Of a stretch of DNA of 64,000 nucleotides, positions 22,120 to 29,898 are shown piece after piece (the first letter of the stretch is position 1; the number at the start of each line of letters is the position of its first letter). Origin of the DNA: Paenibacillus sp. HGH0039 (GTDB lineage: Bacteria; Bacillota; Bacilli; Paenibacillales; NBRC-103111); assembly GCF_000411255.1 (NCBI RefSeq), contig NZ_KE150413.1:1836580-1900579 (forward strand), given 5' to 3'. The notes under the pieces were generated by a model. That model was not told the origin of the DNA. It was given only the letters and a program-made list of their open reading frames with translations, and searched no databases. A program made the translations under genes and the position numbers.

Positions 22120-22233
22120 GTACAACATCCCTTGATGGAAGCCAATATAAGGAGTGTGCCCGATAAAGCGCCTATTCGTTTCACGGAGTGCCGAATCGGG
22201 TACAAAAAGATGACTATACAAGAGGGGGATGGG

Positions 22234-24192
22234 TTGAAGCATATGGCGGGTAAACAGATCCCCGGCTCCGAAGACATCTACTTGTTCCATGAAGGAACTT
22301 CTTATCACAGTTATCGCCTATTCGGGGCACACGCAGAGAAAAGGGGTAAGACAACGGCCGTACGCTTTACCGTTTGGGCGCCTCATGCCCGTGAAGTGCG
22401 CGTCGTCGGCGATTTTAACGAATGGAACGGAGAAAACCACCGCATGGAGACCGTGCCGGAATCGGGCGGCATCTGGACGCTTGCGGTTCCCGGTCTGGCG
22501 GAAGGCTCCCTATACAAATATGAAATCCACACACCGGACGGCCGGATCATCCTGAAAGCCGATCCTTATGCCGTTTATTCGGAGCTGCGCCCGGGAACCG
22601 CTTCCCGCTTTTATAATTTGGACGGGTACAAGTGGGGGGACCAGAACTGGCGGCGCCAGCGCGCCCGGAAACCGGCATACGATCAGCCTTTAAACATTTA
22701 CGAAGTCCATCTCGGAACTTGGAAGAAGAAAAGCCGCGAAGAGGACGTGCTCCTCTCCTACCGAGAGCTGGCGGACGAACTTGTCGCTTACGTTCTCGAA
22801 ATGGGATATACCCATATCGAGCTGCTTCCGCTTGCGGAGCATCCTTTCGACCGTTCCTGGGGCTATCAGGCGACGGGCTATTTTTCGGTGACGAGCCGAT
22901 TCGGCGAACCGAGAGACTTTATGTATTTCGTGGATAGGTGTCACCAGGCGGGCATCGGCGTCATTATGGACTGGGTGCCGGGTCATTTCTGCAAAGACGC
23001 CCACGGCCTGCGCCAGTTTGACGGACAACCGCTCTATGAACCGGATGAGCCCAATCTGGCCGAAAAGCCGGAATGGGGGACGCTGGCCTTTGATTTTAAC
23101 AAGCCGGAGGTTCACAGCTTCCTTGTTTCCAACGCGATGTTCTGGATGGACAAATATCACATTGACGGCATAAGGGTCGATGCGGTAGCGAGCATGCTGT
23201 ATTTAAACTTCGGCAAGCCGCAGTCCATGTGGGTCGCGAACGAGCACGGAGGGGACGAGAATCCGGCCGCGATCCGGTTTTTGAAGAAATTAAACACCGT
23301 CGTCTTCGGCTCCTATCCGAACGCCTTGATGATGGCCGAGGATTCCACCGATTGGCCTCAAGTCACGACGCCTGTCGATGCGGGCGGACTGGGCTTTAAT
23401 TACAAGTGGAACATGGGCTGGATGAACGACATGCTGAACTATATGAAAATGGACCCGATCCACCGGAAGCATCACCATAATCTGATCACGTTCTCGTTTA
23501 TGTACGCGTTCAACGAAAATTTCGTGCTGCCGCTTTCGCATGACGAAGTTGTGCATGGCAAGCGGTCCATTCTGCATAAAATGCCGGGGGATTACTGGCA
23601 GAAGTTTGCCAACACCCGCGTGCTTTACGGTTATATGTCCGGTCATCCGGGGAAAAAGCTTCTGTTCATGGGCGGCGAATTCGCCCAGTTCGACGAATGG
23701 AAGGACCTGGAGGATCTGGACTGGTTTTTGCTGGACTATGAGCTGCACGGCAAAATGCAGGCCTATGTCCGGGCCTTGAACCGCTTCTACCTGGAGCAGC
23801 CTGCCTTATGGCAGAACGATCACGGCCACGACGGGTTCCAGTGGATTTCGCCCGACGATTCCAGCCAGAGCGTCGTCGCTTTTATCCGCAAAGGCAAGAA
23901 GGCCAAGGACGATCTCATCGTCGTGTGCAACTTTACGCCGGTCGTCCATCCGGATTACCGGATCGGCGTTCCCGGACCGGGGACGTATGCCGAAATCTTC
24001 AACAGCGACGACGAAGCTTACGGCGGGTCGGGCCAGGCCAACCGGCAGCCGCTTGCGAGCGAAGCGGTTCCGCTGCACGGTTTTGACTACAGCTTGTCGC
24101 TTCGCGTACCGCCGCTTGCCGCAGTTTATCTGAAACGATCACAAGTCGAACGTACCTCGCGACGAAAGGGGAAATCGAAAGATGCGAAGTAA
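22234..24192 (+). CDS. glgB: 1,4-alpha-glucan branching enzyme
   Basis: 652 residues from TTG 22234. N-terminal CBM48 ([13 protein letters not shown]) then the GH13 barrel. Catalytic residues: nucleophile D316 in [13 protein letters not shown], acid/base E369 in [10 protein letters not shown], and the third acid in [10 protein letters not shown]. It makes alpha-1,6 branches in glycogen. The frame is open to ATG 22132, but AGAGGGGGAT at 22221-22230 sits 5 bases before TTG 22234 and the usual IYLFHEG N-terminus follows shortly. It overlaps glgC by 11 bp. First gene of glgB-C-D-A. Confidence 0.93.
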
Positions 24193-25330
24193 AGAATGTA
24201 TTGCCATGCTGCTTGCCGGAGGAGAGGGAAGACGACTCGGCGTGCTGACGCAGCAGCTGGCGAAACCGGCCGTTCATTTCGGCGGAAAGTACCGCATTAT
24301 CGATTTCACGCTCAGTAACTGCACGAACTCGGGCATCGACACGGTAGGGGTGCTCACCCAATACCAGCCTCTCGTGCTGAACTCCTACATCGGCATTGGC
24401 GGGGCATGGGACCTGGACCGTAAAAACGGAGGCGTAACGGTGCTGCCTCCTTTTATGGAGCAGGGCGGCGGCGACTGGTATCAGGGGACGGCGAATGCGA
24501 TTTACCGCAATATCGGGTTTATCGACCGCTATGAGCCGGAGTACGTGCTGATCATCTCGGGGGACCACATCTATAAAATGGATTACGATCGGCTGCTCAC
24601 TTACCACAAAACGAAGGGTGCGGACGCCACGATCGCGGTGATTGAGGTCAAGTGGGAAGAGGCGTCGCGTTTCGGCCTTCTAAGCGTAAATGAAGAAAGC
24701 GAAATTACGGAGTTCGCGGAAAAACCGAAAGAACCCAAAAGCAACCTCGCTTCCATGGGCGTATATATGTTTACCTGGAAGGCGCTTAAAAAATATCTGA
24801 TCCAGGATAACGAAAATCCGGACTCCAGCAAAGATTTCGGGAAGGACATCATTCCGGCCATGCTGGAAGAAGGGGCGAACCTCGTAGCGTACCCTTTCCA
24901 GAGCTACTGGAAGGATGTCGGCACCATTCAGAGCTTGTGGGAAGCGAATATGGACCTGCTGGACGATCCGACCCAGCTGAACCTGAACGATAAATCGTGG
25001 CGTATCTATTCCGTGACGCCTTATCAGCCTGCCCAGTTTGTTTCGGACGGGGCCCAAGTACGCCGTTCACTCGTGAACGAAGGCTGCTCCGTGTTCGGGG
25101 ATGTGGACCACTCCGTCCTGTTCTACGGCGTCCATATCGGCGAGGGCAGCGTCATCCGGGATTCCGTCATTATGCCGGGAGCGAGAATCGGCAGCAATGT
25201 CACCATCCGCAAGGCGATCATCGGGGAAAATACGATCGTGGACGACGGGGCGACCGTAGGAGACGGGGAAGAGATCGTGCTGATCGGCGGAGGAGAACAC
25301 ATACGGGCCACTACGGAGTTGAAAGGATGA
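24182..25330 (+). CDS. glgC: Glucose-1-phosphate adenylyltransferase, catalytic subunit
   Basis: 382 residues. Nucleotide-binding [37 protein letters not shown], catalytic [10 protein letters not shown], and FAEKP, then a left-handed beta-helix of hexapeptide repeats ([15 protein letters not shown]). It makes ADP-glucose, the committed step to glycogen. It overlaps glgB by 11 bp and is 7 bp before glgD, so the two subunits are co-translated. Confidence 0.93.
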
Positions 25331-25337
25331 GGGTAGC

Positions 25338-26447
25338 ATGAAGCATGTAATGGGCGTTATCAATCTGGTGAACGAGCCGGACGATCTGGAAGAGCTTACG
25401 CTTCACCGCTGTGCTGGCTCGGTTCCGTTCGGAGGCCGTTATCGGCTGATCGATTTTATTTTATCCAACATGGTGAATTCCTCGATCGGCAACGTGGCTG
25501 TGTTTACCCAGCACAAGTACCGTTCCCTGATGGATCATCTGGGTTCCGGCAAGGAATGGGACCTCGACCGCAAGAGAGGCGGCCTGTTCGTGCTGCCGTC
25601 CGTCCAGGACGATCCGGCGGGCATGTCGCGCGGAGATTTGTTCCAATTCTATTCCCACCGCGATTATTTCTACCGGGGCCGGGAAGAGCTGGTCATCATC
25701 GGCCGCAGCCATATGGTATGCAACATTAATTTCGAAGACGCCGTCCGCTACCACGAAGATATGAGAGCGGATGTTACCGTCATTTATAAAGAGGCGGAAG
25801 AGGAATACTCGGGCAGCTACCGCCGCCTTGCGGTACGTCCGGACGGCAGAGTGACGGTCATAGAGGACCAGACCGGACGTCTGCGTACGGACAACGTGTC
25901 CATGGAAATGTATATCATGAGCAAATCGCTCCTTCTGGACATGGTGGAGACTTGCCTGGCGCAGGGCTACGATCATCTGGTCCGGGACGGGATCATGAAG
26001 AACGTCGACAAGCTGAACGTGGTCGGCTACCGCCATGACGGCTATCTCGGAATCGTGAATTCGATCCAGGGCTACTACCGGCACAGCATGGAACTGCTGG
26101 ACCCGTCGGTGCTGCGGGAGTTGTTCTTCCGCAAGGATCTCATCTACACCAAGGTAAAGGACGAACCGCCTGCCCGTTACGAGGCCACCGCGAACGTGCG
26201 CAATTCCCTGATCGCCAACGGCTGCGTCATTGAAGGCAAGGTCGATAACAGCATCTTGTCGCGGGGGGTAAAAATCAGCAAGGGGGCTGTCGTGAAAAAC
26301 AGCATTATCCTGCAGAACTGCTCCATTGAAGAAAATGTCGTGATCGAGAACGCCATTCTCGACAAGGACGTGTTCATCAGCCGGGGGCGTGTATTGACCG
26401 GGGATGTTCGGGCACCTTTCATAGCAGCGAAAATGAAGGTCATCTAA
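25338..26447 (+). CDS. glgD: ADP-glucose pyrophosphorylase regulatory subunit
   Basis: 369 residues, GlgC-like fold. The nucleotide-binding glycine-rich loop of GlgC is missing: the N-terminus reads MGVINLVNEPDDLEELTLHR, and the catalytic SGDH is replaced by IGRSH. These are the features of GlgD, the non-catalytic partner that raises GlgC activity in Firmicutes. C-terminal hexapeptide beta-helix present. Ribosome binding site in the glgC-glgD junction. Confidence 0.9.
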   Translation: MKHVMGVINLVNEPDDLEELTLHRCAGSVPFGGRYRLIDFILSNMVNSSIGNVAVFTQHKYRSLMDHLGSGKEWDLDRKRGGLFVLPSVQDDPAGMSRGDLFQFYSHRDYFYRGREELVIIGRSHMVCNINFEDAVRYHEDMRADVTVIYKEAEEEYSGSYRRLAVRPDGRVTVIEDQTGRLRTDNVSMEMYIMSKSLLLDMVETCLAQGYDHLVRDGIMKNVDKLNVVGYRHDGYLGIVNSIQGYYRHSMELLDPSVLRELFFRKDLIYTKVKDEPPARYEATANVRNSLIANGCVIEGKVDNSILSRGVKISKGAVVKNSIILQNCSIEENVVIENAILDKDVFISRGRVLTGDVRAPFIAAKMKVI

Positions 26448-26464
26448 AACGGATTCCGACAATC

Positions 26465-26510
26465 AAAAGCCGTAACCGGACGCCGCCGAGCGGTTCCGGT
26501 TTGGCTTTTT
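26465..26510 (+). terminator. Imperfect terminator or attenuator between glgD and glgA
   Basis: AAAGCC...AACCGG pairs with CCGGTT...GGCTTT with a small bulge, followed by TTTT. It could reduce glgA expression relative to glgBCD. Confidence 0.5.
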
Positions 26511-26556
26511 CAAATAGAACTTAGAAGAAATTCAGAAGACGGGAGTGGAGACGTAC

Positions 26557-29500
26557 ATGAACATTTTGTTTGCGGCTTCGGAAGCGGCGCCTTTCGCCAA
26601 GACGGGCGGATTGGGTGATGTAATCGGGTCCCTGCCCAAGGAACTTAAACGCAACGGAGCGGATGTCCGGGTCATTCTGCCCAAATATGACGAGATTCCT
26701 CAAGTATTCAAAGACAAGATGGAGACGGCGAACCTCGTCACGTTCCGCGTAAATCTGGGCTGGCGCTCGCAGTACTGCGGCATCCAAACCCTGGAACACG
26801 AAGGCGTCACGTTTTATTTCGTGGACAACGAGTTTTATTTCCGCAGAAGCGGGCATTACGGATACGGCGACGATGCCGAAAGATTCGCGTTTTACTGCCG
26901 GGCCGTAATCGACTCGCTTCCGCATATCGGCTTCAAGCCCGATGTGATTCACTGCCACGACTGGCAGGCGGGCATGATTCCGGTTTTGCTTAGAGCGCAG
27001 TACAGCCCGTACTATCCGTTCTATGAAGATATCAAAACGGTCATAACGATACACAATCTGCGCTACCAGGGGCTTTTCTCCAAAGAGACGATGATGGATC
27101 TGTTCGGCCTGGACGCCGGCTATTTCAACGGGGATCAGCTCGAAATGTACGACGGCGGCAGCTTCCTGAAAGGCGGACTGCTGTATTCCGATCGCATTAC
27201 GGCGGTTAGCCCGACTTACGCGGAGGAGATCCGCACGCCGTTCTTCGGCGAGCATATGGACAGCCTGCTGCGCTACCGCAGCGAGGCGACCGTAGGCATC
27301 GTCAACGGGATCGACTACGATCTCTTCAATCCGATGACCGATTCCCATCTGGCTGTCACGTACCGGGACTCCTTGTCCAAAAAGCGGCTGAATAAAACGC
27401 ACCTTCAGCAGCGGCTGGGGCTGCCGGTCCGCGACGACGTGCCGGTTATATCGCTGGTGACCCGGCTGGTACAGCAGAAGGGGATCGATTTGATCCGTCA
27501 CGTGCTGCCGGAGCTGCTGTCCCTGGATGCCCAATGGGTGATCGTGGGAACCGGGGATCACGAATATGAGCAGCTGTTCCGCGAGGCGGCGGCCCGGCAT
27601 CCCGACAAGCTGGCTGCGTACATCGCCTTCGACGACGGGCTTGCCCGTCAGGTATACGCCGGCTCGGACCTCTTCCTGATGCCGTCGCTCTTCGAGCCCT
27701 GCGGAATCGGTCAGCTCATCGCGATGCGCTACCGCACGGTGCCGATCGTCCGCGAGACGGGCGGTTTGAAGGATACGGTGCAGCCTTACAATGAGTTTAC
27801 CGGCGAAGGCACGGGCTTCAGCTTCAACTCGTACAACGCTCACGATATGCTGCATACGGTCAGACGTGCGGTGCATTTCTATCTTCATGACCAGGATGCC
27901 TGGCGCAACCTGATGGCGAACATCAAGAAGACCGATTTCAGCTGGAAAAAATCGGCCCTGCAGTACAAGTCGCTGTACCAGGAACTCATCCGGGAGGCGG
28001 CGGACGCGTCCAAAGAGCGCCAGAGAGCCTGGCAGGAAGCGGAGCGGCGGCGCGGTGAACAGGAAGCTCAGCTCCGGGTGGCTGCGGCTCATGCGGCCCA
28101 GCTGAGGGAAGCGGCTCCGGCCGCGGCGAGCGGCCGGACCTCCGCCGGACCTAAGTCCGCTGCCGTCAGCGAGACGGGAGAAGACGACGGCGGCGGGGCC
28201 CCCGGAGGCAAAGCCTGGTGGAAAGAGAGCGTCGTCTACCAGATTTATCCGCGCAGTTTTAAAGACAGCAACGGAGACGGAATCGGGGATATTCCCGGCA
28301 TCATCTCGAAGCTGGATTACTTGAAGGAGCTCGGCGTCGACGTGATCTGGCTGTCTCCGGTTTATCAATCGCCCAATGACGACAACGGCTACGATATTAG
28401 CGATTACCGCGGGATTATGGACGATTTCGGAACGATGGCGGATTGGGAGAAGCTGCTCGCGGAAGTGCACAGCCGGGACATGAAGCTTATTATGGATCTC
28501 GTCGTAAACCATTCGTCGGACGAGCATGCCTGGTTCCTGGAATCCCGCTCCTCCAAAGAGAATCCCTACCGGGATTATTACATTTGGAGGCCCGGCCGTG
28601 ACGGACGGGAGCCGAACAACTGGACGAGCATCTTCAGCGGTCCCGCCTGGGAGTATGACGAGCAGACCGGGGAGTATTACCTTCATTTGTTCAGCCGCAA
28701 GCAGCCGGATTTAAACTGGGAGAACCCGAGGGTGCGCGAGAAAATCTACGATATGATGACGTGGTGGCTGGATAAGGGAATCGACGGATTCCGCATGGAC
28801 GTCATTAACATGATCTCCAAGACGGAGGGACTTCCAAGCGCGGGCGGAGACCGGTATGCATGGGGCGGAGATTATTTTATGAACGGCCCGAGGGTGCATG
28901 AGTTTTTGCGGGAAATGAACGAAAAGGTGCTTTCCCGTTACGATATCATGACGGTCGGCGAAACACCGGGTGTAACCCCGGACGACGCGGCCCGTTATGC
29001 GAATGCGGACGGCACCGAGCTGAACATGGTGTTCCAGTTCGAGCACATGGAGCTGGACAGCGGCTGGGGCGGCAAATGGGACCCGTGCGCCTGGAAGCTG
29101 AAGGATCTGAAAGCGACGATCGGCCGCTGGCAGACGGGGCTGCACGGACGCGCGTGGAACAGCTTGTACCTGAACAACCATGACCAGCCGAGAATGGTGT
29201 CCCGGTTCGGTAACGACCGCGAATACCGCGTGGAGTCGGCCAAAATGCTGGCGACCTTCCTTCATACGCTGGAGGGAACGCCTTACATTTATCAGGGCGA
29301 GGAGCTCGGCATGACGAACGTACACTTCAAAGGGATTGAGGATTGCCGGGACGTCGAGACGCTGAACATGTACCGGGAGCGCGTCACCGAAGGCGGCGGC
29401 AATCACGACGAGGTCATGAACGCGATCCGCATCAAAGGGCGGGATAACGCCCGGACTCCGATGCAGTGGAGTCCGGAGGAGAACGCAGGTTTTACGACCG

Positions 29501-29898
29501 GAACGCCGTGGCTGCACGTTAATCCGAACTATACGGAGATTAATGCGGAAGCGGTCTTAGCCGACACGGACTCTATTTTTCATTATTACCGGAAGCTGAT
29601 CGCGCTCCGCAAAATTCACCCGGTAATCGTGTACGGCAGCTATGAAATCGTGGCCGAGGAAGACGAGCGCATTTACGCGTATACCCGCACGCTCGGTAAC
29701 GACAGGCTGTTCGTTATGCTCAACTTTACCGGAGAAACGGCTTCCTTCGCGAGCCCGTACCCGCTTCTGGCCGGGGGCGGCGGTGAGCTGCTTATCGCCA
29801 ACTACCCCGTCGGGGAAGGAAGCGAGACGAGCGGTCTGGACGCGGAGCTTCAGCTTCGTCCCTTTGAAGCCAGGGTCTATCTGCTGAAGGCCTTCTAG
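26557..29898 (+). CDS. glgA: Glycogen synthase fused to a GH13 oligo-1,6-glucosidase-like domain
   Basis: 1113 residues in one uninterrupted frame. Residues 1-480 are a complete GT5 glycogen synthase (FAKTGGLGDV near the N-terminus, PSLFEPCGIGQ near the end), which extends glycogen from ADP-glucose. A charged then Ala/Gly-rich linker (about 482-552) leads to a complete GH13 domain starting WWKESVVYQIYPRSF. Its GH13_31 features are QPDLNWENP, nucleophile in GFRMDVINMISK, acid/base in TVGETPGV and NNHDQPR. The valine after the nucleophile is the residue that favours alpha-1,6 bonds in this subfamily. No start codon with a ribosome binding site was seen at the domain junction. ATG 26557 is used because MNILFAASEAAPF is the standard GlgA start; GTG 26545 lies inside the Shine-Dalgarno region. 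Confidence 0.9.
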   Translation: MNILFAASEAAPFAKTGGLGDVIGSLPKELKRNGADVRVILPKYDEIPQVFKDKMETANLVTFRVNLGWRSQYCGIQTLEHEGVTFYFVDNEFYFRRSGHYGYGDDAERFAFYCRAVIDSLPHIGFKPDVIHCHDWQAGMIPVLLRAQYSPYYPFYEDIKTVITIHNLRYQGLFSKETMMDLFGLDAGYFNGDQLEMYDGGSFLKGGLLYSDRITAVSPTYAEEIRTPFFGEHMDSLLRYRSEATVGIVNGIDYDLFNPMTDSHLAVTYRDSLSKKRLNKTHLQQRLGLPVRDDVPVISLVTRLVQQKGIDLIRHVLPELLSLDAQWVIVGTGDHEYEQLFREAAARHPDKLAAYIAFDDGLARQVYAGSDLFLMPSLFEPCGIGQLIAMRYRTVPIVRETGGLKDTVQPYNEFTGEGTGFSFNSYNAHDMLHTVRRAVHFYLHDQDAWRNLMANIKKTDFSWKKSALQYKSLYQELIREAADASKERQRAWQEAERRRGEQEAQLRVAAAHAAQLREAAPAAASGRTSAGPKSAAVSETGEDDGGGAPGGKAWWKESVVYQIYPRSFKDSNGDGIGDIPGIISKLDYLKELGVDVIWLSPVYQSPNDDNGYDISDYRGIMDDFGTMADWEKLLAEVHSRDMKLIMDLVVNHSSDEHAWFLESRSSKENPYRDYYIWRPGRDGREPNNWTSIFSGPAWEYDEQTGEYYLHLFSRKQPDLNWENPRVREKIYDMMTWWLDKGIDGFRMDVINMISKTEGLPSAGGDRYAWGGDYFMNGPRVHEFLREMNEKVLSRYDIMTVGETPGVTPDDAARYANADGTELNMVFQFEHMELDSGWGGKWDPCAWKLKDLKATIGRWQTGLHGRAWNSLYLNNHDQPRMVSRFGNDREYRVESAKMLATFLHTLEGTPYIYQGEELGMTNVHFKGIEDCRDVETLNMYRERVTEGGGNHDEVMNAIRIKGRDNARTPMQWSPEENAGFTTGTPWLHVNPNYTEINAEAVLADTDSIFHYYRKLIALRKIHPVIVYGSYEIVAEEDERIYAYTRTLGNDRLFVMLNFTGETASFASPYPLLAGGGGELLIANYPVGEGSETSGLDAELQLRPFEARVYLLKAF

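Follow-up and report, generated by a model that had tools for sequence, protein, structure and literature searches.

A glycogen synthase joined in one frame to an oligo-1,6-glucosidase-like GH13 domain in the Paenibacillus chitinolyticus group

Introduction

Family GH13 holds the branching enzyme GlgB as well as the oligo-1,6-glucosidases, which take terminal, 1,6-linked glucose off short branched oligosaccharides. Gene-level fusion of glycogen synthase (GlgA) to another glucan-active enzyme, as at the locus described here, is known from the Criblamydiaceae and Waddliaceae, where, according to the available excerpt of that report, GlgA is joined to GlgB, the branching domain is reported to be inactive, and glgC and glgP are deleted (PMC11046441). 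In Lactobacillus acidophilus, the excerpts of two reports place a putative alpha-amylase or debranching enzyme, amy, in a glgBCDAP-amy-pgm operon (PMC4282360, PMC4243779). For the fungal alpha-1,3-glucan synthase Ags1, the available text of a third source mentions GT5 and GH13, i.e., the two domain types linked with one enzyme, as here (PMC5872309).

We describe a fusion gene in a stretch of 64,000 nucleotides (hereafter “the window”) from Paenibacillus sp. HGH0039 (contig NZ_KE150413.1, positions 1,836,580 to 1,900,579 of the forward strand; genome G000). Ags1 differs from this GlgA–GH13 fusion in its domain order and membrane parts. The chlamydial fusion differs in its partner, which is a branching enzyme in the excerpted account, whereas here the partner is oligo-1,6-glucosidase-like and keeps its catalytic residues (PMC11046441); moreover, glgB (22132–24192) and glgC remain separate full-length genes in the window. 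A fusion of the GlgA–GlgB type is thus ruled out, as glgB stands alone and the partner matches oligo-1,6-glucosidases. The L. acidophilus operon is similar in that an amylase- or debranching-type gene is co-transcribed with glgBCDA, but there, as far as the excerpts go, amy is a separate gene after glgP, whereas in our operon glgP is absent and the hydrolase forms part of the fusion (PMC4282360, PMC4243779).

Results and Discussion

The locus and the fused frame

The fusion gene is the last of a same-direction glgB-glgC-glgD-glgA run, laid out as follows (window coordinates):

22132–24192, + strand: glgB, branching enzyme (by eye, from similarity to relatives; start uncertain, with locus L039 suggesting about 22243)
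24182–25330, + strand: glgC (from relatives’ loci)
25338–26447, + strand: glgD (from relatives’ loci)
26485–26505, + strand: terminator-like hairpin with a T run, in the gap that separates glgD from the fusion gene (hairpin scan, fold)
26557–29898, + strand: glgA-GH13 fusion gene, 1113 aa plus stop
26557–27990, + strand: GlgA (GT5) domain, residues 1–478 (profile matches, catalytic residues, alignment to PDB 2qzs)
27991–28209, + strand: linker, residues 479–551 (first ~40 residues predicted helical, the remainder without confident structure; selection much looser than on the halves)
28210–29895, + strand: GH13 domain of oligo-1,6-glucosidase-like, GH13_31 type, residues 552–1113 (profile and PDB matches, tree, catalytic residues)
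28798–28803, + strand: GH13 nucleophile D748 and the next residue, V749 (residue check)

The absence of glgP, pointed out in an earlier note on this DNA, extends beyond the operon to the whole genome, which has no match to the glycogen phosphorylase profile PF00343. The hairpin could dampen read-through into glgA: the scan found 14 terminator-like sites in the region against 8.6 expected by chance, and the fold of 26448–26560 has a z of -2.97. The hairpin stretch is nearly identical in two other fusion loci (L002, L003), and by eye a different hairpin-like, T-ended stretch lies in the remaining two (L004, L005).

Translation of 26557–29898 (+ strand) gives 1113 residues with no inner stop, a full-length product of ~124 kDa (estimated at 111 Da per residue). 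The first half matches PF08323 (residues 2–239) and PF00534 (residues 291–440), passes the GlgA equivalog NF001898 (703.8 bits vs. a cut-off of 603, residues 1–478) and TIGR02095 (572.9 bits vs. 328.45), and aligns to the glycogen synthase PDB 2qzs. The second half begins its complete GH13 domain at about residue 554 by Pfam and NCBIfam, and PF00128 matches at residues 562–1027 with 598 bits over model positions 1–446 of 446. All 562 aa of this half searched against PDB gave the oligo-1,6-glucosidases 9u7v (880 bits, residues 1–559) and 1uok (827 bits, residues 1–560; presumably from Bacillus cereus); both of these are stand-alone chains, whereas here the same domain type, matched nearly full-length, is fused. 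Together, the Pfam, NCBIfam and PDB matches bear out the proposal that a single frame of 1113 residues holds a complete GlgA and a complete GH13 domain.

Reality and distribution of the fusion

The whole fused frame is present in all five genomes examined of the GTDB genus (G000 included), and the four other proteins share 81, 81, 96 and 97% identity with that of the window over their entire length. At least four public records carry the fusion among the best 80 loci listed, namely Paenibacillus sp. UNC499MF, P. chitinolyticus NBRC 15660, P. lutrae N10 and Paenibacillus sp. FJAT-26967. The UNC499MF and NBRC 15660 records have linkers identical to the ones in G002 and G003, and the N10 and FJAT-26967 frames are as long as those in G001 and G004; we therefore count five fusion genomes rather than nine. 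A sequencing or assembly error is rejected as having a negligible probability: the fusion is in frame in 5/5 genus genomes, no linker holds a stop, and public records under different names match four of these genomes. The fusion is confirmed as genuine rather than a product of chance. The earlier note had named separate genes in relatives, together with a stop or frameshift in the linker, as signs against a fusion: separate genes for GlgA and GH13 do occur in other genera, while no linker stop or frameshift appears in the five genus members.

Outside this genus no second case occurs among the matches listed. In a relatives set of 59 genomes, 58 gave some match and five a full-length one, and a family survey of 104 genomes at a strict E-value returned full-length matches only in the same five. 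Wider surveys for GlgA covered the order (392 genomes, 368 with a match) and the phylum (398 genomes, 220 with a match); no other GlgA frame above 1000 aa occurs among the matches listed (order to E ~5e-182; phylum to E ~6e-141). Frames of 607–842 aa among these matches come from G055, G104, G128, G470, G686, G725 and G749; in G055, and in G031 (791 aa in the relatives set), the extra length precedes GlgA. Two frames listed in the relatives set, of 1077 (G027) and 1249 (G055), are not open fusions on inspection. The fusion unites known parts in a new domain combination, found until now in a single genus, the Paenibacillus chitinolyticus group. We found no report of a GlgA–GH13_31 fusion in the open-licence literature, covered mostly as titles and the opening lines of abstracts.

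Active sites and specificity

GlgA residues K15, H166, R303, K308 and E380 are kept in 5/5 fusions; in E. coli GlgA, we take the catalytic and ADP-glucose residues to be K15, H161, R300, K305 and E377. The GlgA half would thus be expected, from its conserved residues, to lengthen alpha-1,4 chains using ADP-glucose. In the GH13 half, catalytic D748, E802 and D876, as well as V749, are likewise kept in 5/5 fusions, and the window protein has a QPDLNW motif at residue 716; we assume the usual roles for the catalytic Asp, Glu and Asp, and take the Val after the nucleophile and the QPDLNW motif as marks of oligo-1,6-glucosidases (GH13_31). The claim that both halves have their catalytic residues stands, as every position checked is kept in all five fusions. 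The same holds for the presence of the valine to which alpha-1,6 specificity had been tied, but not for its use as a distinguishing mark: among 119 collected GH13 rows, the residue after the nucleophile is Val in 95, Ala in 9 and Thr in 1 (14 unread by the pattern), and Val, being this common in the group, does not set the fused protein apart.

Oligo-1,6-glucosidases are the nearest relatives of the GH13 half, which probably cleaves 1,6-linked glucose. By homology, it would be exo-acting, removing terminal 1,6-linked glucose from isomaltose, panose and limit-dextrin stubs. Trehalose-6-phosphate hydrolase (TreC) was considered and rejected, as the equivalog TIGR02403 scores 704 bits, below its cut-off of 799.05. 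The TreC subfamily model NF008183 does pass (663 bits vs. a cut-off of 535), though it also passes in 3/3 other GH13_31-like proteins scanned and is therefore non-discriminating.

Selection and the linker

Purifying selection acts strongly on both enzyme halves and much more loosely on the linker. Across six of the ten possible pairs, NG86 dN/dS is 0.026–0.048 for GlgA, 0.050–0.088 for GH13 and 0.085–0.82 for the linker (values of 0.085 and 0.16 for two of the close pairs, and 0.50–0.82 for the remaining four), with synonymous sites near saturation in the distant pairs. The linker had been described as flexible and Ala-rich. Ala-rich it is in the window (20 of 73 residues), though less so, by eye, in the two more distant members (L004, L005), and it is not simply flexible, as a predicted helix at residues 463–518 carries the last GlgA helix on into the first ~40 linker residues (block pLDDT 57–94). 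The structure model, built from a 17-row alignment, has a mean pLDDT of 52.9, and its GH13 half lies mostly below 50, probably because only 5 of the 17 rows covered GH13.

The five linkers contain no stops. It is conceivable that the protein is cleaved, or that translation from an internal start yields GH13 on its own as well: the window has an in-frame GTG at residue 508, and a different GTG lies in the L004 linker; yet linker starts differ among the five genomes, no in-frame linker start codon is common to all five, and L002 and L003 have none at all. We regard cleavage or separate production of the GH13 half as very unlikely.

An unfused neighbor state and the origin of the fusion

A genome of another genus in the same family (G027) offers an unfused comparison at the same locus. 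Its glgB-glgC-glgD-glgA run is followed by a GH13 gene that keeps the frame of glgA, with one TGA between them and the next ATG 18 bases beyond the TGA. By eye, no clear Shine-Dalgarno sequence precedes the GH13 start, the GH13 N-terminus exceeds in length those of the stand-alone proteins L006, L007 and L041, and the genes upstream of glgB are those of the window (a divergent methyltransferase-like gene, then a pseudouridine-synthase-like gene); three other family loci compared (L124, L125, L126) have other flanks and no GH13. In the GlgA tree (32 of 33 rows, one duplicate dropped), G027 joins the five fusions at 98/98. The GH13 tree (54 of 119 rows, hand-chosen, G027 included) places it in the same 11-row clade as the fusions (91/97); the nearest row to it by path is Rossellomorea L041, which is not a fusion, and the AU test does not reject a single clade uniting the G027 GH13 and the fusions (p-AU 0.453). 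By eye, no other genome of the 59-genome relatives set or the 104 family genomes has a close GH13 gene adjoining glgA, with glgA of G016 meeting a contig end that hides its neighbor.

The fusion likely arose when glgA lost its stop codon and ran on into a GH13_31 gene lying in frame directly behind it, or else the gene was later split in G027; judged from these sequences, a single origin of the neighbor arrangement followed by stop loss would be the simplest account, with the G027 split as the alternative.

The presence of this neighbor state also bears on a neutral fusion, in which a stop was lost between co-transcribed neighbors, the two enzymes work independently and the tether fixes only their dosage. 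Besides the same-frame neighbors in G027, the far looser evolution of the linker agrees with it, as do the close stand-alone GH13 genes L119, L120 and L041, which have no nearby glycogen genes (one adjoins a solute-binding-like gene; by eye). The retention of the fused state in all five genus genomes and the lack of a common linker start that would allow separate GH13 synthesis speak against it. We hold a neutral fusion to be a real, if tentative, possibility.

In G006, of the same GTDB genus as G027, glgP lies directly behind glgA (L169, 4147–8052), and GlgA shares just 53% identity with that of the window; two types of glg operon seem to coexist in this genus.

Glycogen breakdown in the genome and its relatives

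PF00343 has no match in the five genus members or in G027, with control matches in 12/14 genomes. In the 59-genome relatives set (own genus included), it matched in 23 (5 strong) and was absent in 36, of which 31 also lack the fusion. The G006 arrangement had suggested that GH13 replaces glgP, but in view of these 31 genomes and of the low GlgA identity of G006 we make no such claim. GH77 (PF02446), searched in G000 only, has no match there (control matches 8/14). Because neither phosphorylase nor GH77 is matched, glycogen breakdown in G000 is probably hydrolytic.

The GH13 complement of G000 comprises seven proteins (eight PF00128 matches, two of them within GlgB): the fusion, GlgB, two GH13_31-like proteins, an alpha-amylase (NF006969, 800 bits, over the cut-off) and two cyclomaltodextrinase/neopullulanase-like proteins (one scanned and below cut-offs, one named by eye). 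One of the separate GH13_31-like proteins is of the Ala type after the nucleophile and the other of the Val type (L158). The genome also has one GH31 match. Type I pullulanase scores over the cut-off in 18/59 genomes, including G001 and G004, but not in G000, G002 or G003; its presence in G001 and G004, both of which carry the fusion, weakens the notion that the fusion substitutes for debranching enzymes.

A locus of G051 (L170, 1801–9480) has glgC-glgD-glgP followed by an Ala-type GH13_31-like gene, with glgA on another contig.

What the tether may do

Our best reading, to which we assign a probability of roughly 0.45, is that the fusion would keep an exo-1,6-glucosidase tethered for the hydrolytic turnover of glycogen, having arisen by loss of the glgA stop. 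The tether would hold the GH13 half at the glycogen particle, where 1,6-linked ends are made, and such a hydrolase would suit a cell that has no glycogen phosphorylase or GH77 and would have to rely on hydrolysis. From the protein families and the locus we infer both activities, their substrates, the stop-loss origin and the benefit of the tether, and likewise the coupling of chain extension with 1,6 hydrolysis put forward in the earlier note. Against this reading, the fused GH13 is not the sole candidate 1,6-glucosidase in G000, given the Val-type L158. The 31 genomes with neither a PF00343 match nor the fusion, the pullulanases of G001 and G004, and the closeness of the G027 GH13 to Rossellomorea L041 also count against it.

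In a branch-editing reading, the GH13 half would trim 1,6 ends that are misplaced or stubby as the GlgA half lengthens the chain, much as isoamylase does its trimming when starch is made. In its favor, a 1,4-synthase is physically coupled to a probable 1,6-hydrolase, both active sites are kept, and the synthesis operon has its own full-length glgB. Oligo-1,6-glucosidase-type enzymes, however, act on short oligosaccharide ends rather than inner branch points, and we judge branch editing unlikely. A self-editing glycogen synthase that sets its branch pattern during synthesis, in a lineage that is also without phosphorolytic breakdown, would be the boldest form of this idea, and is equally doubtful.

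Tethered turnover stays our preferred reading. If both halves work, the fusion would be a natural case in which the synthase of a storage polymer is tied to a hydrolase acting on the other type of linkage, and it would provide a direct way to ask whether trimming during synthesis shapes glycogen, as well as a route to how bacteria without phosphorylase recover the glycogen that they store.
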